Below, piece by piece: positions 13,557 to 24,747 of a DNA stretch of 64,000 nt. The DNA lies in contig NZ_FNCB01000001.1 in assembly GCF_900100855.1 (NCBI RefSeq), positions 324,124-388,123 of the forward strand. The letters are read 5' to 3'. Made by a program: the position numbers and the translations under genes. The notes beneath the pieces were generated by a model. The model was not told the origin of the DNA. It made no database searches and was given only the letters and a program-made list of their open reading frames with translations. Source of the DNA: Idiomarina zobellii. Lineage in GTDB: Bacteria; Pseudomonadota; Gammaproteobacteria; Enterobacterales; Alteromonadaceae. Position 1 is the stretch's first letter; each line of letters opens with the position of its first letter.

Positions 13557-15590
13557 TTATACAGCGCGTTTTAGCTGCTCTCGCAACTGTGCAATGTCAT
13601 CTCGCAACTGCCCGGCTTTCTCAAACTCGAGATCCTGCGCTGCTTGGTACATTTGCTTTTCTTTGTTCTCAATTTCTTTCAATAACGACTTGGTGTCTTT
13701 AATCACCACCGTGCGGGCATCATAGCCTGACGCGACTTCCGCCAGAGCTTTGTCCGCTTTACTCTTACGAGCAGGCGCACTGCCCTGCCCCAAATCCATG
13801 ACATCGGTAATTTTCTTATTCAAGCCTTTCGGCGTTATGCCATGCTCTTTGTTAAACGCAATCTGCTTTTCACGGCGGCGCTCGGTCTCTTCAATCGCGC
13901 GTTGCATAGATCCGGTAATGCGATCGCCATATAAAATGGCCTTACCATTCACATTACGCGCTGCCCGACCTATCGTCTGGATAAGGGAGCGATCTGAACG
14001 CAAGAAACCTTCTTTGTCTGCGTCTAAAATAGCCACCAACGACACTTCCGGCATATCCAAACCTTCACGCAACAAGTTAATGCCGACCAGAACATCAAAC
14101 TCGCCTAATCGTAAGTCACGAATAATTTCCATGCGCTCGACAGTATCAATATCCGAGTGTAAGTAACGAACCTTGATTCCATGCTCATCCAAATAATCGG
14201 ATAAATCTTCCGCCATTTTTTTGGTGAGCGTGGTTGCTAATACCCGCTCGCCCTGTTCTGTGCGCAAACGAATTTCCGACATCAAGTCGTCAACCTGAGT
14301 TGCGACCGGGCGCACTTCAATGGTTGGGTCGACCAACCCTGTCGGCCTGACAACCTGTTCAACCACCTCGTTACTGCTTCGCTCGAGCTCATATTTACCG
14401 GGCGTTGCGGATACGTAGATGGTCTGAGGTGCTATAGCCTCAAATTCGTCAAATTTTAATGGGCGGTTATCCAACGCAGACGGTAACCGGAACCCGTATT
14501 CCACCAGATTTTCTTTACGTGAACGATCGCCTTTGTACATAGCACCAACTTGCGAGACTGTTACGTGAGACTCGTCAATAATAAGCAAGGCATCGTCCGG
14601 TAGATAATCCATCAATGTCGGGGGCGGCTCGCCCGGTGCGCGTCCGGACAAGTAACGGGAATAGTTTTCAATGCCCGAGCAGTAGCCAAGTTCTAACATC
14701 ATTTCAATATCGAACTGAGTCCGCTGGTTGATGCGCTGCTCTTCTATCAGCTTATTTTGCTTCAGCAATATATCGCGACGGTCTTTCAGCTCGTCTTTAA
14801 TTTTATCAATGGCTTTGACCAATACTTCCCTAGGCGTCACATAGTGCGTTTTCGGGTAAATCGTTGCGCGGGCGACGTCTTTTTCTGTGACCTGGCCTGT
14901 CAGTGGCTCGAAGAAACTGATTCTATCAACTTCGTTGTCAAACAACTCAACGCGTACCGCCATTTCCTCCGACTCTGCCGGAAAAATATCAATGACCTCA
15001 CCACGAACGCGATACGTACCACGCTCAAAAGCAGCGTCGTTACGTTTGTATTGCAGCTGGGCTAAACGACGCAAAATATCACGTTGGTCAATAATGTCGC
15101 CGCGACGTAAATGCAGCATCATTTTCATGTACGACTCAGGGTCACCCAAACCATAAATCGCCGACACTGACGCCACCAGGACAACATCCCGACGTTCCAT
15201 CAGCGCTTTTGTCGCGGACAAACGCATTTGTTCTATATGGTCATTAATGGAAGCATCTTTCTCAATAAAGGTATCGGTCGTTGGCACATAAGCTTCTGGC
15301 TGATAATAGTCATAGTAAGAAACAAAATACTCCACCGCGTTGTTAGGGAAGTATTCTTTCATTTCACCATAAAGCTGTGCGGCGAGCGTTTTGTTGTGCG
15401 CCAATATTAATGTTGGGCGTTGAGAACGTTCAATGACATTCGCCATAGTGAACGTTTTACCTGAGCCAGTAACCCCCAGTAAGACTTGATGAGCTAAGCC
15501 TGCATCCAGATTGTCGAGCAAACTTTCAATGGCTTTCGGCTGGTCGCCGGCTGGCTTGTATTTTGAAACCAACTGAAATGACTTAGCCAT
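13557..15590 (-). CDS. uvrB: UvrABC excinuclease subunit B
   Basis: Damage-verifying helicase-like subunit of nucleotide excision repair; it receives DNA from UvrA and recruits UvrC. The 677-residue product has Walker A G-V-T-G-S-G-K-T (39-46), the beta-hairpin region [10 protein letters not shown], helicase motifs ([13 protein letters not shown]) and a C-terminal UVR domain for UvrC contact. AGGAGGGAG precedes the ATG at 15590, inside the end of the MATE gene, which it overlaps by 8 bp. Translation is probably coupled. No convincing LexA box was seen directly upstream. Confidence 0.97.
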
Positions 15591-16941
15591 GCTCCCTCCT
15601 GAGTTCTTTTGAAAACCACACATAGGCAATGGTCGCCGTTAGCAGGTTTGCCACAACACCGCCAATAAAGAGACCGGTTAAATCCGCCAGTAAGCTGCCT
15701 AAGTACGACAAGGGCACAAACAAGATAAATAAACGGACAATGCTAAGCCATAATGCGTTCATCGGTTTATGCACCGCATTAAAACTAGAGTTTGTCAGAA
15801 TAATTACGCCCTGTAGTCCATAACCCAACGGCATAATATAAATAAAGAGTTTAACAATGTCGGCCACCGCCTTTTCTTCGGCAAAAGCCATCGCTATCCA
15901 ATGCGCTGTAACCAACATCAGCAAGTAAATAACAGCCTGAATAATCAGCACTGATTTTAATGCAGTACGATACGCCTGCTGCACACGATCAATTCTGTCG
16001 GCACCATAGTTTTGGCTGATTAACGGCGGCAGTGACATCGATAAAGCCAATATAATAACGCTTGCCAATGACTCTAAACGCGACCCAACTCCAAACGCAG
16101 CAACGGCAGGGGCGCCATAAGCCGCAACTATGGCGGTCATTACTGACATTGCCAAGGGCGTTAGCATATTCGCACCGGCTGCGGGCATACCAATTTTTAA
16201 AACCTCTCTTGCGGATTTCACCCAAGCCGCCAAGAAGTTCAGACCGTTGGCTGGCGTAAAAGACACCAGCTTATTTCGACTGAGTAACCAAAACACCAGT
16301 AACACACCGCTAAACCATGATATAACGCTAGCTAAAGCTGCACCTTCAATCCCCATAGCGGGTATAGGTCCCCAGCCGAAGATTAAAATCGGATCAAAAA
16401 TAGCATTCGCAAGGCCCCCGGAAGCCATTATTAATGACGGTGTCCGGGTATCTCCTGCCGCTCGTAAAACCGCATTTCCCACCATGGGTGTCACCAACAT
16501 GACACAGCCAAAGAACCACAGGCTCATATATTCACGAATTAACGGCATTAATCTGGTTTGAGCCTGAAGCAAGCTAAAGATAGGCTCCATGAGTAAATAA
16601 CCAATAACCGCCAGTGCAGCAACTAATAAGGCCGATACAGAGAGTGCCGAGAAACCATCAAAGTGGGCTTCTTCAGGTTTATCCGAGCCATACTTTCTGG
16701 CAATAACAGCGGAGGTGCCTATTCCCAGGCCAATGGCCAGGCTGACAACTGTAAAGGTAACGGGAAAGGTAAAACTAACGGCAGCTAAAGGATCTGTGCC
16801 CAATAAACTGATAAAGAAGGTGTCGACAACATTGAAGCTGATAAGGGTGGCCACACCGAAAATAACAGGCCAGGTCATTTCCCAAAGCTTCTGTCCTACC
16901 GGCGCGCTGATAAGACTTCGTGATGCGTCGGCAGCTGCCAT
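15583..16941 (-). CDS. MATE-family efflux transporter
   Basis: A 452-residue inner-membrane protein with about twelve hydrophobic segments arranged as two MATE halves (about 10-215 and 240-450). MATE pumps export cationic compounds using sodium or proton gradients; the substrate is unknown. GAGGAGG precedes the ATG. It is the first gene of a two-gene unit with uvrB, recalling the SOS-linked MATE gene dinF of E. coli, but the sequence does not show that it is the dinF orthologue. Confidence 0.9.
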
Positions 16942-17075
16942 TCTATTCCTCCTCAGTTAAGTAGCCCAGTAGTGTAACTCAGACCGCTGTTTGTGGCTAC
17001 GGAGAATAGACTTTAACCGCCCTAATCCGTATAGTATTGGGCAATTCTCCTCTATCTAAAAAACAGGATCTGAAC

Positions 17076-18263
17076 GTGGATTATCAACTCTCCGACCGTA
17101 TTAATTCGATTCAACCATCACCCACATTAGCGGTGACTCAGAAAGCCAATGAGCTTCGTCAACAGGGCAAAGACGTTATTGGTTTGGGTGTGGGAGAACC
17201 TGATTTTGATACGCCAGAATTTGTTAAAGACGCCGCCATTCAAGCCATTAAAGATGGTAAGACAAAATATACCGCGGTCGATGGTATTGTTGAGCTAAAA
17301 GATGCCGTTATTAGAAAGTTAGAGCGAGACAACCAGTTAAGCTACCAGCGTAACGAAATTATTGTTTCATCGGGTGGTAAGCACAGCATCTATAACCTAC
17401 TCAGTGCGTGGCTAAACCCCGGCGACGAAGTCGTTATTCCTGCGCCTTACTGGGTATCGTATCCGGATATGACAAAACTGGTAGGTGCCACCCCGGTTAT
17501 CGTACAAGCCGGTATTGATCAGCGTTTTAAAATTACCGCAGAGCAGCTGCGTGGTGCATTAACCGATAAAACTCGCTTAATGTTCATTAATAGCCCGTCA
17601 AACCCGGCTGGTACTGCCTACACTGCGGAAGAATTGAAAGCGTTAGCGGACGTGTTAAGAGACTATCCGAATGTGCTAATTGCCACAGACGATATGTACG
17701 AGCACATTTTATGGTCCGATTCGCCATTTGCTAACCTGCCTATGGTTGCTCCCGATCTAAAAGATCGCACGGTTATTCTTACCGGCGTTTCCAAAGCCTA
17801 TGCGATGACAGGCTGGCGAATTGGATATGCTGCTGGTCCTGCACCTATTATTGCCGCCATGAAAAAAATGCAGTCGCAAAGCACATCTAACCCGGCCAGT
17901 ATCAGCCAATATGCTGCCGCTGCGGCTCTCGATGGCGATCAAAGCTGTATAAAGACAATGGTAACGGCATTCAAAGAACGTCACGATTATTTAGTCGACG
18001 CCTTAAATGCAATTGATGGCATAAACTGTGTGCCCGGAGATGGTACTTTCTATGCGTTTGCACACATTGAAAAACTGATGGAAAAAGCAGGAACGAAGGA
18101 CGACGTCTCGTTTTGTGAGAAATTACTCTCTGATGCTAATGTCGCGTTAGTGCCAGGCTCGGCCTTTGGCGCTGAAGGCTATTGCCGTCTGTCTTTTGCA
18201 ACTGACCTCAACACGCTAAAAGAAGCGGTCAAACGCATTAAATCTTTTGCAGAAAACTTATAA
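17076..18263 (+). CDS. Class I aspartate aminotransferase (type I-gamma-like)
   Basis: PLP-dependent transfer of the amino group between aspartate and 2-oxoglutarate. The 395-residue protein resembles the AspC/AatA of thermophiles and many marine bacteria more than E. coli AspC. K240 in GVSKAYAMTGWRIGY is the PLP lysine, and NSPSNPAG (172-179) and YAAGPA are family motifs. The start was set to GTG at 17076 because AGGA (17065-17068) lies seven bases upstream and no ATG fits. A strong terminator follows. Confidence 0.9.
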   Translation: MDYQLSDRINSIQPSPTLAVTQKANELRQQGKDVIGLGVGEPDFDTPEFVKDAAIQAIKDGKTKYTAVDGIVELKDAVIRKLERDNQLSYQRNEIIVSSGGKHSIYNLLSAWLNPGDEVVIPAPYWVSYPDMTKLVGATPVIVQAGIDQRFKITAEQLRGALTDKTRLMFINSPSNPAGTAYTAEELKALADVLRDYPNVLIATDDMYEHILWSDSPFANLPMVAPDLKDRTVILTGVSKAYAMTGWRIGYAAGPAPIIAAMKKMQSQSTSNPASISQYAAAAALDGDQSCIKTMVTAFKERHDYLVDALNAIDGINCVPGDGTFYAFAHIEKLMEKAGTKDDVSFCEKLLSDANVALVPGSAFGAEGYCRLSFATDLNTLKEAVKRIKSFAENL

Positions 18264-18268
18264 AAAAT

Positions 18269-18319
18269 AGGGTTTTGGTGCTAAACAGCAATGTAAGCGC
18301 CAAAACCCTTTTGCTTTTT
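18269..18319 (+). terminator. Rho-independent terminator of the aminotransferase gene
   Basis: A 14-bp stem with one G-T wobble (18269-18282 with 18296-18309) encloses a 13-nt loop. Tracts TTTT and TTTTT follow. It begins 5 bp after the stop codon. Confidence 0.85.
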
Positions 18320-18691
18320 CCGCCCAGTAATACGTATCTCCTCAATTTCCTACTTCTTTTCGTTTGACGCTTTTATTACAAATTAACAAAATTTACTGCG
18401 ATCCTTTGCGTGCCTTTTAGTTAAATGACTTACAAGAAGTCAAGAGAAAAAACGCAGAAATTTGATGTTAAACGGGACCAAATTTCAATCAATTTAACCA
18501 AGAAATACACAAGTTGCTGATTCTGCAAGCATTGCCTGATGAACAAACCACCAAACTGAACAGTTGTTCACCGAATTTATATAAGCCATTAATTTTAAAG
18601 GATATATATTTATCTAGGTAATTTTTAACCATCGCTTAAATTGCGCTCGACACCGCATAAACCGTATTATTTAACAGAGTTAAGCACAGGG
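18320..18691. other. Gene-free, AT-rich intergenic stretch
   Basis: I see no credible gene here on either strand. The segment becomes strongly AT-rich at about 18575-18640, with runs such as GATATATATTTAT. It leads directly into the DnaA-box cluster, so it could serve as a DNA-unwinding or regulatory flank. Confidence 0.5.
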
Positions 18692-18761
18692 TTATCCACA
18701 GATTCCGTGGATAAGATCCTGTAGCCGTTATCTACTGGGCAACTCAGTGATCTGTGGATAA
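18692..18761. promoter_or_regulatory. DnaA-box cluster with interleaved GATC sites
   Basis: Two perfect DnaA boxes TTATCCACA occur, one on the plus strand (18692-18700) and one on the minus strand (18753-18761). A near-perfect inverted box (TTATCCACG, minus, 18706-18714) lies five bases after the first. A weak box (TTATCTACT, plus, 18728-18736) lies between. GATC sites occur at 18715, 18749 and 18772. This is DnaA-binding DNA: an oriC-like, datA-like or DARS-like element, or a DnaA-controlled promoter. Which one cannot be settled from sequence. Confidence 0.7.
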
Positions 18762-18815
18762 TCACTTCAGCGATCAACTTATGACTTATGTTATAGCAGA
18801 GATTATGACCAAAGC

Positions 18816-18842
18816 TTGACATTGTTTTCCGTGAGGTATAGA
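18816..18842 (+). promoter_or_regulatory. Possible upstream promoter toward tRNA-Asn
   Basis: TTGACA (18816-18821) and TATAGA (18837-18842) are separated by a short 15-bp spacer. No ORF follows before the tRNA genes, so it could add to their transcription or produce a short leader RNA. Confidence 0.35.
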
Positions 18843-18932
18843 CGATATTTTCACAAAAAGTATCGTGTTTTCCTAAATTGTTGAGTTTTTCAGCAGACAG
18901 TCATGTTTCCCTAAAAAACCTTAATGGAACAG

Positions 18933-18961
18933 TTGACAGTCTCAGGCAGTAGCTTTAATAT
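18933..18961 (+). promoter_or_regulatory. Promoter of the tRNA-Asn pair
   Basis: A perfect -35 TTGACA (18933-18938) is followed by an AT-rich -10 area: TTTAAT at 18954-18959 or TAATAT at 18956-18961, giving spacers of 15 or 17 bp. The first tRNA starts about 21 bp further on. Confidence 0.6.
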
Positions 18962-18981
18962 TCGCAGCCGTTGAACGTTGT

Positions 18982-19058
18982 TCCCCAGTAGCTCAGTTGG
19001 TTAGAGCGGTGGACTGTTAATCCATGTGTCGTTGGTTCGAATCCAACCTGGGGAGCCA
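18982..19058 (+). tRNA. tRNA-Asn (anticodon GTT), copy 1
   Basis: A 77-nt cloverleaf with acceptor TCCCCAG/CTGGGGA, anticodon loop CTGTTAA (GTT), T-loop GGTTCGAATCC, discriminator G and encoded CCA. Confidence 0.97.
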
Positions 19059-19084: not shown

Positions 19085-19161
19085 TCCCCAGTAGCTCAGT
19101 TGGTTAGAGCGGTGGACTGTTAATCCATGTGTCGTTGGTTCGAATCCAACCTGGGGAGCCA
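19085..19161 (+). tRNA. tRNA-Asn (anticodon GTT), copy 2
   Basis: Identical in sequence to the first tRNA-Asn, 26 bp downstream, and probably cotranscribed. A short TTTT follows the CCA end. The convergent glycosyltransferase gene ends 16 bp away. Confidence 0.97.
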
Positions 19162-19176
19162 AGTTTTCCAGACCCC

Positions 19177-20193
19177 TTAAAGCCCCCAAAGCCTTTTACT
19201 CAAATCCCGGACTGACTCTTTTGCGCCATCAGCAATCCAATTCGCTAAGTGTTTTGCAACGTTAGGCCATTGCATATAAGCGCTTTGTCGTTCCTGCAGA
19301 GCCCGTTCAATAGAGGCACAACTCACATTTTTCATTACTGTTGCAAGCCCCTTACGCTCTAGTATTTCCGCATTTTTCTGTTGTTCGAACTGGCCTGTCA
19401 AAGGCTTTATGATCAGTGACTTCCCTTCTCTCAATGCCTCACAACTGGTTTCAAAGCCCGCATTAGAAATTACCGCTGACGCTCGACTAAACTGCTCTGA
19501 AAACTGTTTTCTTGACGGTGCGAAGCATTCAATGTGCCCATAGCTGCACCGCGTTAATTTGGGATGAAAGACCGAGAATTCATAATCATCAATAGGGTAA
19601 AGCGCGTTAATAATAACTTTAGGATCCTCAAACGGCAGGTAAACGATCACTCGTTGGGCTAAGCCGCCCTTACAGCCATTATCAGGCTCTCTAACAACCG
19701 GAGGTATGGCATTACCACACTCTAACCAGTGCATGCCTACAGGCGTTGAACAGGGAGCAAATTGCTTAATCATTTGACGCTGCCAGAGGCTCAGCGTTTT
19801 ATAAAGCTCGGGCTCCCAGAATGCGTATTGCCGCCCCAAACCAATAGAACGCACTCCAGCTCGTTTAGCTGCCCAGGCACTCACTGGCTCGTAGTCCGTA
19901 ATGACCAGATCATATTGCGTTACATCTAACGCTTTTACGTCGTTGTAAAACTGTCTCCAGTTATTTGAGGTGAGCGTTTTTCGGCGTTTCAAGGCGCCAT
20001 TTTCAGTGACAAAAGACAGTCCCTCGCGGCTTTGATAGGCACCAAAAACGTCCATATCAAACAAGCCATAGTTCCTGCGTCCGGAAATCAGATAGTCAAC
20101 GTGAATCGGCTGCTGACTTAAGTAAGTAGCCAAAGTGTGGCTTCTGGAAAGGTGACCATTTCCGGTGCCCTGAATACCATATAGAACTCTCAT
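19177..20193 (-). CDS. MJ1255-like glycosyltransferase family protein
   Basis: A 338-residue protein with an N-terminal GIQGTGNGHLSRS loop, as in MurG-like GT-B glycosyltransferases. A C-terminal nucleotide-sugar region (ISNAGFETSCEALREGKSLIIKP, then EQQKNA) resembles the conserved MJ1255/TIGR00661 family. It probably acts at the cytoplasmic face of the membrane; donor and acceptor are unknown. The start at 20193 is supported by GGGAG upstream and by a 4-bp ATGA overlap with the PAP2 gene, suggesting coupled translation. An upstream in-frame extension lies inside that gene. Confidence 0.75.
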   Translation of the reverse strand: MRVLYGIQGTGNGHLSRSHTLATYLSQQPIHVDYLISGRRNYGLFDMDVFGAYQSREGLSFVTENGALKRRKTLTSNNWRQFYNDVKALDVTQYDLVITDYEPVSAWAAKRAGVRSIGLGRQYAFWEPELYKTLSLWQRQMIKQFAPCSTPVGMHWLECGNAIPPVVREPDNGCKGGLAQRVIVYLPFEDPKVIINALYPIDDYEFSVFHPKLTRCSYGHIECFAPSRKQFSEQFSRASAVISNAGFETSCEALREGKSLIIKPLTGQFEQQKNAEILERKGLATVMKNVSCASIERALQERQSAYMQWPNVAKHLANWIADGAKESVRDLSKRLWGL

Positions 20194-20699
20194 AGCATAA
20201 GCTCCCAAATAAGTACTGCTAACAATACGCCGGCTAATATGTCTGACGGGAAGTGCACGCCAACAATAATTCGTGAAGCACCAATGGCAGACGCCCACAG
20301 GTAGCAAATGACGCCGAATTCGGGAAAGTGGACGTGGGTTATTCCTGCAAAGATAAAAGCGGCTGCAGTGTGTCCGGAGGGAAAACTGAACTTGTCAGAC
20401 GCGACAATCAGCGCTGCCAGCGACAACCCTAAGTCACTGGGGCGTCGGCGTTTGAAGCTACTTTTTAAAAGCCAGTAAATGGGCAGTTCAATTAGGAAAG
20501 CAAGTAATAAATGCTTAAAGTAGGCGGTACCAGAGTCGTTCAACAGCACACTCGCTAGTGCAATTGCAAAGTAGGCGTAGCCGTCTCCGGAACGGGAAAT
20601 CCAAACCGCTAACCGCCCGGCAACGGGACGCGCTCGTATCCCTGAGCACAGGCAGTAACAGTAGGTATCAAAACGCTGTAAATAACTGAGCAGTACCAT
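20190..20699 (-). CDS. PAP2-family phosphatase (membrane lipid phosphatase)
   Basis: A 169-residue integral membrane protein with all three PAP2 motifs: K79-x6-R86-P87, P107-S-G-H110, and S142-R143-x5-H149-x3-D153. Such enzymes dephosphorylate lipid phosphates such as undecaprenyl pyrophosphate or phosphatidylglycerophosphate; the substrate cannot be assigned. It overlaps the glycosyltransferase by ATGA, so the pair may act in one envelope-lipid pathway. It is divergent from rnfA. Confidence 0.85.
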   Translation of the reverse strand: MVLLSYLQRFDTYCYCLCSGIRARPVAGRLAVWISRSGDGYAYFAIALASVLLNDSGTAYFKHLLLAFLIELPIYWLLKSSFKRRRPSDLGLSLAALIVASDKFSFPSGHTAAAFIFAGITHVHFPEFGVICYLWASAIGASRIIVGVHFPSDILAGVLLAVLIWELML

Positions 20700-20891
20700 G
20701 GCTTTTATACCGTTTTAGCGCCAGTTGCAGCCACTTTGCCTACCACTTATGACAGTTTTAATGCGCTAGCATGACAATAAAGTGACAATTTGCCGGATTT
20801 CGCCGAGAAACCCTACCCAAAGGCGGTTGTTTATAAGCCTCAAAACACCGATAATATGCGCTCTTTATTTTTCACTGTTGCGGAATGCTCA

Positions 20892-21473
20892 ATGACCGAC
20901 TATTTGCTGCTATTAATTGGCACAGTATTGGTAAATAACTTTGTGCTCGTTAAGTTTCTTGGCTTGTGCCCATTTATGGGGGTATCCAATAAACTCGACA
21001 CAGCTATTGGTATGTCCGCAGCTACGACCTTCGTACTGACATTAGCGTCTGTTTGCAGCTATTTAGTGAATGAATACTTACTCGAGCCGTTAGGACTTAT
21101 GTCGCTGCAAACACTGAGCTTTATTCTGGTTATTGCGGTGGTTGTTCAGTTCACCGAAATGGTCGTGCATAAAACCAGCCCTACCTTATATCGCTTACTG
21201 GGCATATTTTTACCGCTAATTACAACCAATTGTGCGGTACTGGGTGTGGCTTTATTGAACATTAATGAGCAGCACAACTTCGTTCAGTCTATTGTTTATG
21301 GACTTGGCGCTGCCATTGGTTTCTCGCTGGTTCTTATTCTTTTCTCAGCGTTACGCGAACGTCTGGCTGCCGCCGATGTGCCAGTAACCTTTAAAGGTTC
21401 AGCGGTAGCAATGATAACAGCCGGTCTTATGTCTCTTGCCTTTATGGGCTTCAGCGGATTAGTGAGCAGTTAA
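20892..21473 (+). CDS. rnfA: Electron transport complex subunit RnfA/RsxA
   Basis: Integral membrane subunit of the Rnf complex, which couples electron flow between NADH and ferredoxin to ion movement; in E. coli the homologous Rsx complex reduces SoxR. The 193 residues match E. coli RsxA exactly in length. Six membrane segments are visible, with the N-terminal motif [14 protein letters not shown] carrying a conserved Cys and ITTNCAVLG carrying another. The ATG at 20892 was chosen by homology; the reading frame stays open upstream, but the added residues do not look like RnfA. Confidence 0.95.
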
Positions 21474-22055
21474 ATGAGTGTATTAGGAGCAGTTATTACA
21501 CTTGGCATTTTAGCGCTGATATTCGGCGTTATTCTAGGCTTTGCTGCGGTTAAGTTTAAAGTTGAAAGCGACCCTATTGTTGACCAAATCGATGAAATTC
21601 TGCCACAAACCCAGTGTGGGCAATGCGGCTATCCAGGCTGTCGTCCTTATGCCGAAGCCATCGCAAACGGTGACGATATCAATAAGTGTCCTCCAGGCGG
21701 CGAAGCAACTATCAAGCAATTGGCCGACTTAATGGGTGTTGAGGCAAAACCTTTAGACTCCGCGCACGGTGAAGAAGACGTCAAAAAAGTCGCCGTTATT
21801 CGGGAAGACGAATGCATAGGCTGTACTAAATGTATTCAGGCCTGCCCTGTCGACGCTATTTTAGGCGCGGCCAAGCAAATGCACATCGTTATTGAACACG
21901 AATGTACCGGTTGCGACTTATGTGTTGAGCCTTGCCCGGTCGACTGCATCGATATGGTCTCTGTCAAAGCAAGCCCTGAAACCTGGCAATGGGATCTCGA
22001 TACGGTTAAAGAAAACATCAAAAAGAACAGTATTCCGGTGAAGGTGGTTGAATGA
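21474..22055 (+). CDS. rnfB: Electron transport complex subunit RnfB/RsxB
   Basis: Iron-sulfur subunit of the Rnf complex, anchored by an N-terminal helix (about 5-25). A four-cysteine cluster (C48, C51, C56, C72) binds one [4Fe-4S] centre. Two ferredoxin motifs follow: C114, C117, C120, C124 and C144, C147, C150, C154. The 193-residue product starts directly after the rnfA stop (TAAATG), showing tight coupling. Confidence 0.96.
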
Positions 22056-23692
22056 GTCGTCCAGATAACAACACCATTTATGTGTCAAGCAATGTATCTG
22101 GGCATTTCCCTGGTGGTATACATCCGCCAGAGAGAAAAGCACCTGCGTGTAACAAACCAATACGCTCGCTGCCTTTACCTAACGAGTTAATTTTGCCGGT
22201 ACGTCAGCATATTGGCCCATCGGGCAATATGTTAGTTGAGCCGGGTCAGACGGTTGATAAAGGTCAGCAACTCACTGAGGCCGGTTTGAGTCTGGGGCTA
22301 CCACTACACGCCCCAACGTCCGGTGTTATTCACGCTATTGAAGAACGCCCAACGGCACATGCTTCAGGTTTGCCCGAACTAGCCATTGTAATAAGACCCG
22401 ATGGTAAAGACCGCTGGGGCAATAAGCACGCCATTCCGGATTATCGGGAAGTTGAAGTCTCTCGCTTGCTTGAGTTGATACAACAAGCCGGTATTGCCGG
22501 TTTAGGTGGAGCGGGTTTCCCAACCGCGCAAAAACTGGCACAGCAAAAGCCTTTGCGTCATCTCATTATTAATGGCGTTGAGTGCGAACCTTATATTGCC
22601 GCAGACGATGGGTTAATGCAGGAGTACGCTGAAGACATAATCGCGGGTGTGAAAATTCTTCAGTACATTACTCATTGTGACTCCGTGCTGTTCGCCATAG
22701 AAAACAATAAGCCTAAGGCTATTGAAGCTATTCGCACCGCCATTGGGGACGACTCGCAAATAGCACTAAAGGTCGTACCAACAAAATACCCTTCCGGCGG
22801 CGAGAAGCAACTCATTGAGCTACTGACCGGTGAGCAGGTCCCCAGCGGCAAACTGCCAATGGATATTGGTTTCTTGATGCAAAATGTCGGAACCGCATAC
22901 GCCATTAAGCGCGCTATTATTCATGGTGAACCATTACTTGAACGTGTTGTGACGGTCACCGGTGATGCCTTAAAGGAAAAGCGTAACCTTTGGGCGCTGT
23001 TGGGAACACCTATTGAACATTTGCTAAAGGAATCTGGGTTTACTCCCGAAAATAAACAACGCGTCATTATGGGTGGCCCTATGATGGGCTTTACCCTACC
23101 TAGCATTGATGTTCCGGTCATTAAAACCACCAACTGTGTTTTAGCACCAACAGAAGCAGAGCTGCCTGCGCCAGGGTCTGAATTAGCCTGCATACGTTGC
23201 GGTGCCTGCGCCGACGCCTGTCCGGCCAGCTTGCAGCCACAGCAACTGCAATTACTGGCTAAAGCCAAAGACTATGACGCGCTGGACGAGCAAAACCTGT
23301 TTGACTGCATAGAGTGCGGCGCGTGCGCCTATGTCTGCCCCAGCGAAATTCCCTTAGTGCACTATTATCGGAAAGCGAAAGCAGAGATTCGCAACATTGC
23401 TCGTGAAAAAGCTAAAGCGGAACATGCGCGCCAGCGCTTTGAAGCTCGACAAGAGCGTTTAGAGCGTGAGAAGCAGGAGCGCTTAGAGCGCCATAGAAAA
23501 GCAGCCGAAGCCCGCAAGAAAGCCCAGGCTGAAAAAGCGGAAACCGCAACGACAGACAACAAAGAAAAAACCGAGTCAGGCGGCAAGTCTGCTGCCGTTG
23601 CTGCTGCAATTGCGCGTGCAAAAGCCAAAAAAGCCGCCCAGGCGCAAAAAGCCGATGAAGAAAATAACTCAGCGAAAGGAAATGAGTCATGA
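22052..23692 (+). CDS. rnfC: Electron transport complex subunit RnfC/RsxC
   Basis: NADH-contacting peripheral subunit of the Rnf complex. It contains a [10 protein letters not shown] region for flavin/NADH binding, a SLBB-like part, and two ferredoxin motifs near residues 380-425 ([11 protein letters not shown] and [11 protein letters not shown]). The last 120 residues are an Ala/Lys/Glu/Arg-rich, probably helical tail; such tails vary widely between species and are far longer in E. coli. The 546-residue gene overlaps rnfB and rnfD by 4 bp each. Confidence 0.96.
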
Positions 23693-24747
23693 GTTTTAAA
23701 ATAGCGTCGTCACCTCATGGGCACAGCCAACACAGTACCAGCAGCATGATGCGCTGGGTTTGCTACGCGCTGGTGCCCGGTGTGTTGATACAAAGCTATT
23801 TCTTCGGTTTCGGTGTTTGGTTTCAAATAATTCTGGCGGTAACTACCGCTTTAATTGCGGAGTCAGCCTGTATTATTGCTCGTGATCGCCCCGCTATGTC
23901 CGCACTGCGAGACAATACAGCCTTGGTCACTGCCATTTTGTTGGCCATTAGTATTCCGCCTTTAGCCCCCTGGTGGATCATTGTTATTGGTACGTTGTTT
24001 GCCATTGTTGTCGTTAAGCATGTTTACGGTGGCATGGGACAAAACCTGTTTAATCCGGCGATGGCGGGTTACGTTTTATTGCTGGTATCTTTTCCGGTAC
24101 AAATGACCAACTGGCTACCACCATCGACAATAGGTGAGCATTCACTCACGCTTTGGCAGACGTTACACACCATACTGTTTGAATATACACCGGCAGGTTA
24201 CAGCGTCGAACAGCTACGTGCCGGTATTGACGGTGTCACTATGGCAACCCCATTAGATGCCATAAAAACAGGTTTAACACAGGGCTTCACACTGACCGAA
24301 GTATATGCCAAACCTCAGTTTAGCTTTTTAGCGGGCGCTGGCTGGCAATGGGTTAACCTCGGCTTTCTCATTGGTGGTTTGTTACTCATACAGCAACGTA
24401 TTATCAGCTGGCACATTCCTGTCGGACTCATCGCGGGATTGTGTGTTCCGGCCTTCTTTGCTTATCTTTTCGCCCCCGACCTTATGGCAGGACCTGTGGT
24501 TCACGCACTGAGCGGCGCAACAATGCTTGGCGCATTTTTCATTGCGACCGACCCGGTCTCTGCGGCGACCTCGAACCGGGGGCGGGTTATTTTCGGCGTG
24601 TTAATCGGTTTATTGGTGTTTATTATCCGCAGTTGGGGTGGGTATCCCGACGGGGTTGCGTTCGCTGTGCTGCTAGCCAATATGTGTGTTCCTATTATTG
24701 ATCGTTATACAAGACCAACCGTTTATGGTCACGGAGAACGCAAATGA
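23689..24747 (+). CDS. rnfD: Electron transport complex subunit RnfD/RsxD
   Basis: Membrane subunit homologous to NqrB, carrying a covalently bound FMN. The flavin-attachment threonine is T187 in the GVTMATPLD segment, the same residue number reported for Vibrio cholerae RnfD. Around ten hydrophobic segments are visible in 352 residues. It overlaps rnfC and rnfG by 4 bp each. Confidence 0.95.
   Translation: MSFKIASSPHGHSQHSTSSMMRWVCYALVPGVLIQSYFFGFGVWFQIILAVTTALIAESACIIARDRPAMSALRDNTALVTAILLAISIPPLAPWWIIVIGTLFAIVVVKHVYGGMGQNLFNPAMAGYVLLLVSFPVQMTNWLPPSTIGEHSLTLWQTLHTILFEYTPAGYSVEQLRAGIDGVTMATPLDAIKTGLTQGFTLTEVYAKPQFSFLAGAGWQWVNLGFLIGGLLLIQQRIISWHIPVGLIAGLCVPAFFAYLFAPDLMAGPVVHALSGATMLGAFFIATDPVSAATSNRGRVIFGVLIGLLVFIIRSWGGYPDGVAFAVLLANMCVPIIDRYTRPTVYGHGERK

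Follow-up and report, generated by a model that had tools for sequence, protein, structure and literature searches.

The window analyzed here comprises 64 kb of the Idiomarina zobellii genome, and the site described below occupies a gene-free gap between the stop codon of an aminotransferase class I/II gene (17037..18263, plus strand) and the first of two plus-strand tRNA genes (18982-19055 and 19085-19158), which comparison with relatives identifies as tRNA-Asn. An initial annotation of this DNA had put the gap at 0.7 kb and uvrB at 3 kb from the site. The gap indeed measures 0.72 kb (18263 to 18982), and uvrB (13557..15629, minus strand; 76% match to E. coli uvrB) is found ~3.05 kb from the core of the site, in the direction from box I to box III as defined below. 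A MatE-family transporter gene (15583..16941, minus strand) and the aminotransferase gene, which is convergent on the core, lie between the two. On the other side of the gap, a promoter-like TTGACA-N17-TAATAT sequence (18933..18961, plus strand) points away from the core and most likely serves the tRNA pair. A separate TTGACA island (18815-18825), conserved across the genus, is located between box IV and this promoter. An Rfam search at the locus returned nothing above gathering scores except the two tRNAs.

Read on the minus strand, the gap contains a core of three DnaA boxes, TTATCCACG-gaatc-TGTGGATAA-ccc-TGTGCTTAA. Box I (TTATCCACG, 18714-18706, minus strand) carries one mismatch, and its counterpart in E. 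coli DARS1 is TTATCCACT. Box II (18692-18700, plus strand; TTATCCACA on the plus strand, corresponding to TGTGGATAA on the minus strand) is perfect, runs opposite to box I and is separated from it by a 5-bp spacer. Box III (18680-18688, plus strand; TTAAGCACA on the plus strand, corresponding to TGTGCTTAA on the minus strand) is located 3 bp from box II and is two bases off the consensus, as is its E. coli equivalent. Boxes III and II together make up a 'double DnaA box', TTAAGCACA-ggg-TTATCCACA, on the plus strand. An accessory perfect box IV (18753-18761, minus strand) has the orientation of box I and lies 47 bp from it, start to start, and the cluster including box III spans 18680-18761. 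Three GATC sites begin at 18715, 18749 and 18772, the first of which (18715-18718) adjoins box I. The two perfect boxes, the box with a single differing base and the interleaved GATC sites had all been correctly recognized in the initial annotation, and the third core box at 18680-18688 was absent from its inventory. When we read the core on the plus strand, no acceptable third box was found; box III emerges on the minus strand. A weak plus-strand box, TTATCTACT (18728-18736), has two mismatches and is a doubtful part of the arrangement. The boxes had originally been grouped into two inverted pairs. The I-II pair is conserved, but the conserved unit consists of boxes I, II and III plus an outlying fourth box, and only about half of the genomes retain the weak member of the second pair, at 18728.

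We compared these boxes with chance expectations. Boxes with at most one mismatch show no clear excess in the window (18 versus 13.4 expected, with 10 of 100 shuffles reaching 18), and perfect boxes show none in the whole genome (26 versus 27 for the reversed control). A genome-wide box scan had been proposed as a check, and among these 26 boxes the two perfect ones of the site, 61 bp apart, form the only pair closer than 700 bp on one contig. Of the 148 genomes of the order, 82 contain the inverted pair TTATCCAC-N7-GTGGATAA, compared with one of 148 for the reversed control; an exact box I-II match is absent from the other 66, and from two of 10 family genomes (G024 and G070). When spacers between 0 and 20 bp were allowed in the genus loci, only spacers of 5 (19/19), 17 (18 loci) and 16 bp (10 loci) occurred. 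The 17-bp spacer fits box I combined with box III, and the 16-bp spacer represents the weak box at 18728 combined with box IV. We conclude that the boxes are real, conserved and not a product of chance.

Conservation across Idiomarina, on which the initial annotation had made its reading depend, was assessed with a scan that demanded a perfect box II and the TGTG of box III. The core is present in register in all 19 genomes of the genus, with box I reading TTACCCACA in one of them. Box IV, which the scan did not demand, is found at exactly -47 relative to box I in all 19 as well (perfect in 15, with one mismatch in four). The GATC abutting box I, at -4, is likewise kept in 19/19 genomes, and the other two GATC sites vary. 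Counted from box I, mean column identity is 0.95-0.98 for bases 1-30 and 0.87 for bases 31-40, where most of box III is located. Elsewhere in the gap it is mostly 0.5-0.75, with islands at box IV, at the TTGACA near -110, at a block near +190 and at the tRNA promoter, and no other part of the aligned gap is as well conserved as the core. The weak 18728 box reads TTATCTACT in eight of 18 aligned genomes, and its 16-bp pair with box IV (at most two mismatches in all) is found in 10 of 19 loci versus 19 of 19 for the core. We also inspected cores linked to uvrB or matE in other genera, 44 distinct ones after removal of E. coli DARS2 from 45 rows. Three of them have a box with no more than one mismatch at -47 and ten others have one at -46, and since 13 of 44 outside cores thus have one, an accessory box near -47 is not peculiar to the genus. 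Among those 44 cores, none was seen in E. coli K-12 or in the other family loci.

The arrangement resembles the DARS elements of E. coli. In strain MG1655, DARS1 reads TTATCCACT-attcc-TGTGGATAA-cca-TGTGTATTA and is located upstream of uvrB, and DARS2 has the same core layout, TTATTCACC-ttttc-TGTGGATAG-agt-TGTGAAGAA. The common DARS core is described as three boxes, with box I opposite to boxes II and III and with equal spacing in DARS1 and DARS2 (PMC5742627), and DnaA molecules are reported to make a head-to-head contact at boxes I and II (PMC5742627, PMC8682772). A double DnaA box whose members are 2-3 bp apart is reported to predict DnaA binding in ChIP-seq, and the entry for E. coli DARS1 is TAATACACA-tgg-TTATCCACA (PMC11317965, Table 1 for the entry). 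The Idiomarina site shares with E. coli DARS1 the three-box spacers (N5, N3), the orientations, the direction to uvrB and a similar replichore position. It is intergenic, on the upstream side of uvrB and in the same orientation as DARS1, and differs in that two genes, for the aminotransferase and the MatE transporter, intervene before uvrB. It also has the fourth box at -47, the GATC abutting box I and an IHF-like block near +192, and the corresponding scans found none of these three at E. coli DARS1. DARS2, in contrast, has different neighbors and lies on a different arm, between rppH and mutH instead of by uvrB.

Since our own genome is split into 30 contigs, replichore positions were measured in four single-contig relatives, using dnaA as a proxy for oriC and a dif pattern without mismatch. 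The core maps to 0.628, 0.640, 0.640 and 0.645 of the replichore in these genomes. The corresponding value for E. coli DARS1 is 0.663, calculated with the E. coli dif coordinate.

A scan of genome contigs with the core pattern yielded at least 118 loci. In 18 of those listed, uvrB or matE is found, each time on the downstream side with the same direction; 100 have neither gene in the sequence piece examined, so geometry alone is no proof of orthology. The gene orders are graded. The core leads directly to uvrB, at a distance of 0.34-0.52 kb, in enterobacteria, Vibrio and Photobacterium. Seven family loci (L203-L206, L209, L211 and L213) and a Colwellia MAG (L138) show the order core, matE, uvrB, and 18 of the 19 genus genomes show the order core, convergent aminotransferase gene, matE, uvrB. 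None of the three genes was matched in the 19th genome (G004), whose piece is interrupted by a stretch of N close to the core. A tRNA-Asn gene is located on the box I side in three of three genus loci and in nine of 14 non-genus loci scanned, including Vibrio owensii; the five loci that do not have one include E. coli. The simplest reading would be a single inherited locus that was displaced from uvrB by other genes. The initial annotation had suggested a DARS-like element from the location of DARS1 beside uvrB in E. coli, and the geometry, the direction to uvrB, the intermediate gene orders and the replichore position all point the same way. Sequence, synteny and position firmly support the assignment of the site as the putative DARS1 orthologue.

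The three-box geometry also occurs in other bacteria. An Alcaligenaceae MAG (L133) contains four cores in tandem, 295, 295 and 303 bp apart, and a Duganella sp. (L107) contains two, 435 bp apart; one box I is weaker in each case. Six Pseudomonas and one gamma proteobacterium (L093, L094, L103, L114, L117, L136 and L147), as well as Legionella, Nitrosomonas and Woeseiaceae loci, have the geometry with no match to uvrB, dnaA, dnaN or mnmG in the pieces examined. We considered whether core loci lacking uvrB represent oriC, and rejected this idea: dnaA, dnaN or mnmG was matched in none of 80 loci listed first and in only one of the full set of at least 118. The flanking frames of eight such loci revealed no obvious shared neighbor by eye.

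Upstream of the cluster lies the strongly AT-rich tract mentioned in the initial annotation (18570..18632), with 79.4% A+T compared with 52.7% for the window. Only 0.11% of 63-bp windows equal this value, and the sequence of the tract is poorly conserved. Farther along, the genus alignment reveals a conserved 25-bp block (18500..18524, minus strand) that contains an IHF-consensus-like AATCAGCAACTTG (18522-18510); TGTGTATTT adjoins this sequence within the block. Fifteen of the 19 genus genomes match the IHF consensus at positions +191 to +193 relative to box I, three more are one base off by eye, and the site is unreadable in G004, where a stretch of N interrupts the piece. The same consensus has nine perfect matches in the 64-kb window. 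At E. coli DARS1, no match was found between -300 and +500 even when one mismatch was allowed. E. coli DARS2 is reported to require IHF and Fis (PMC4245941), compared with which the site here has one IHF-consensus match. The block as a whole is matched in seven of 98 family genomes, three of them from the genus. An IHF input to the site through this block is a lead only; the block extends beyond the consensus and may be something other than an IHF site.

The DnaA boxes, GATC sites and AT-rich tract had also raised the possibility that the locus is a secondary replication origin or a relocated oriC. The dnaA gene is not nearby, as already stated in the initial annotation, and maps to a different contig (C20) of the genome, in which dam, seqA and hda are present too. 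Arguing against an origin at the site, dnaA and dif are located at opposite poles in the four single-contig genus genomes and divide the chromosome into near-equal arms (1.39/1.45, 1.32/1.27, 1.31/1.30 and 1.41/1.39 Mb), and the sequence of the AT-rich tract is, as outlined above, poorly maintained. The GC skew, a suggested check, is negative in 14 of 16 4-kb bins of the window; the bin after the site (20001-24000) reaches +0.018, and the next one is negative again. There is consequently no lasting skew switch at the site at the resolution of 4-kb bins in the 64-kb window, and we regard an origin here as very unlikely.

Alternatively, the boxes could switch the transcription of uvrB or another neighbor in response to DnaA instead of reactivating it, given that E. 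coli DARS1 is reported to overlap the promoter uvrBp3 and that DnaA represses uvrB (PMC6015884). Such a switch is improbable in Idiomarina, where the convergent aminotransferase gene and matE separate the core from uvrB in 18 of 19 genus genomes, where a promoter scan shows no site over the core, and where the likely tRNA promoter starts 172 bp past box IV. We also considered a site that titrates DnaA, or a datA-like element. The four good boxes and the IHF-like site at a fixed distance would fit such a role, and E. coli datA likewise is described as a DnaA-box locus linked to tRNA genes, with a reported tie to tRNA transcription (PMC10950094). However, its activity is described as opposite to that of DARS (PMC5742627), and the head-to-head I-II arrangement with a 5-bp spacer is a DARS hallmark (PMC5742627, PMC8682772). 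Judged against published descriptions of datA, there is little positive evidence for such an element here, and we regard a titration or datA-like function as very improbable.

We favor the interpretation that the site is the DARS1 of the genus and that it reactivates DnaA, which we hold to be very probable by analogy with E. coli. ADP-DnaA would bind boxes I and II head to head, with box III, as part of the double box II-III, contributing a third DnaA protomer. DnaA contact at the core would loosen ADP, and apo-DnaA would depart and take up ATP, so that more ATP-DnaA would be available for the following round of initiation at oriC. Box IV would probably recruit a further DnaA molecule and is a candidate counterpart of the ~50-bp stimulatory flank of DARS1. 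DnaA binding, ADP release and an effect on initiation timing at the site are inferred from E. coli, for which Asp-269, Arg-334 and Leu-290 of DnaA are reported to be involved in ADP release (PMC4245941, PMC5742627). The DnaA of our genome, which shares 330 of 456 aligned residues with the E. coli protein, keeps Asp-269, Arg-281, Arg-285, Leu-290 and Arg-334, and Glu-21 is replaced by glutamine. A conceptual problem with the DARS1 boxes of E. coli is that reactivation and uvrB control are hard to separate because the two overlap. Here the DARS1 core and uvrB have been separated by nature, by 3 kb, and the core is still kept. Its survival despite a convergent gene between it and uvrB favors DnaA reactivation over uvrB control.

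A loose core pattern with at most two mismatches matched two places in each of the 19 genus genomes. The only extra match came from G014, where the first site was also read in reverse, and the reversed control gave one match (G013). In our genome, this second DARS-type core (contig C21, 85590-85619; 7591-7620 of piece L288) has an EIIA-like gene on one side and yfbV (DUF412) on the other, with dapE and xthA close by. It is flanked by yfbV, xthA and dapE in all six genus regions read and by the EIIA-like gene in five of them. An Hda-like gene is found 11-13 kb away in 19/19 genus genomes, and in our genome the distances to hda and seqA are 11-16 kb. Outside the genus, a core lies 0.8-2 kb from dapE in four genomes of two other family genera (G049, G124 and G139; G108). 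The second core maps to 0.864-0.876 of the replichore in the four single-contig genus genomes, on the same arm as the first. It was rejected as DARS2 at mutH: E. coli rppH, mutH and their neighbors are unmatched in all six regions.

The classical place of DARS2 is nevertheless retained as a gene pair. mutH is present in 19/19 genus genomes and lies beside a divergent rppH in all ten regions read, on the opposite arm at 0.34-0.38 of the replichore in the four single-contig genomes (0.41 in E. coli). No core within four mismatches was found at rppH-mutH in any of these ten regions; G018 has one lone one-mismatch box in the gap. We compared 24 further genomes, hand-picked from the 148 of the order, 16 of them outside and eight inside the family. 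A core with spacers of 5 and 3 bp is found between rppH and mutH in 13 of the 16 outside genomes versus none of the eight inside, and other spacers occur in at most two of the 16. The outside genomes lacking it are G019, G032 and G033, of which G019 has an exact box I-II pair 1.8 kb from mutH, with rppH beyond the piece. Measured from one matched gene start to the other, rppH and mutH are 612-984 bp apart outside the family (15 loci with both genes) versus 124-434 bp inside it. The gap is short and devoid of a DARS2 core in 18 family genomes read (L312-L321, L333, L335, L336, L338-L341 and L343). Sampled family genomes thus have no DARS2 core at the classical place, and they carry another core elsewhere where this was tested. 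In titles and abstract openings of the open-licence literature, we found no earlier description of this site or of DARS2 loss.

The site is known in kind, and what makes it interesting is that it has been parted from uvrB and that DARS2 is altered. In E. coli, DARS2 is viewed as the dominant element (PMC4245941), and DARS2 moved near terC is reported to be only partly functional, while a copy at equal distance on the other arm is functional (PMC5010248). We tentatively propose, at somewhat less than even chances, that this family has a rewired DARS system, in which DARS2 may have been deleted from rppH-mutH, with the core at dapE, near the terminus and on the DARS1 arm, replacing or supplementing it. 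The principal reactivator may then be DARS1, which has been freed from the uvrB promoter and carries box IV and perhaps an IHF site. The missing classical DARS2, together with an extra core near the terminus, would constitute a natural test of DARS2 dominance and of the partial function of such elements near the terminus.
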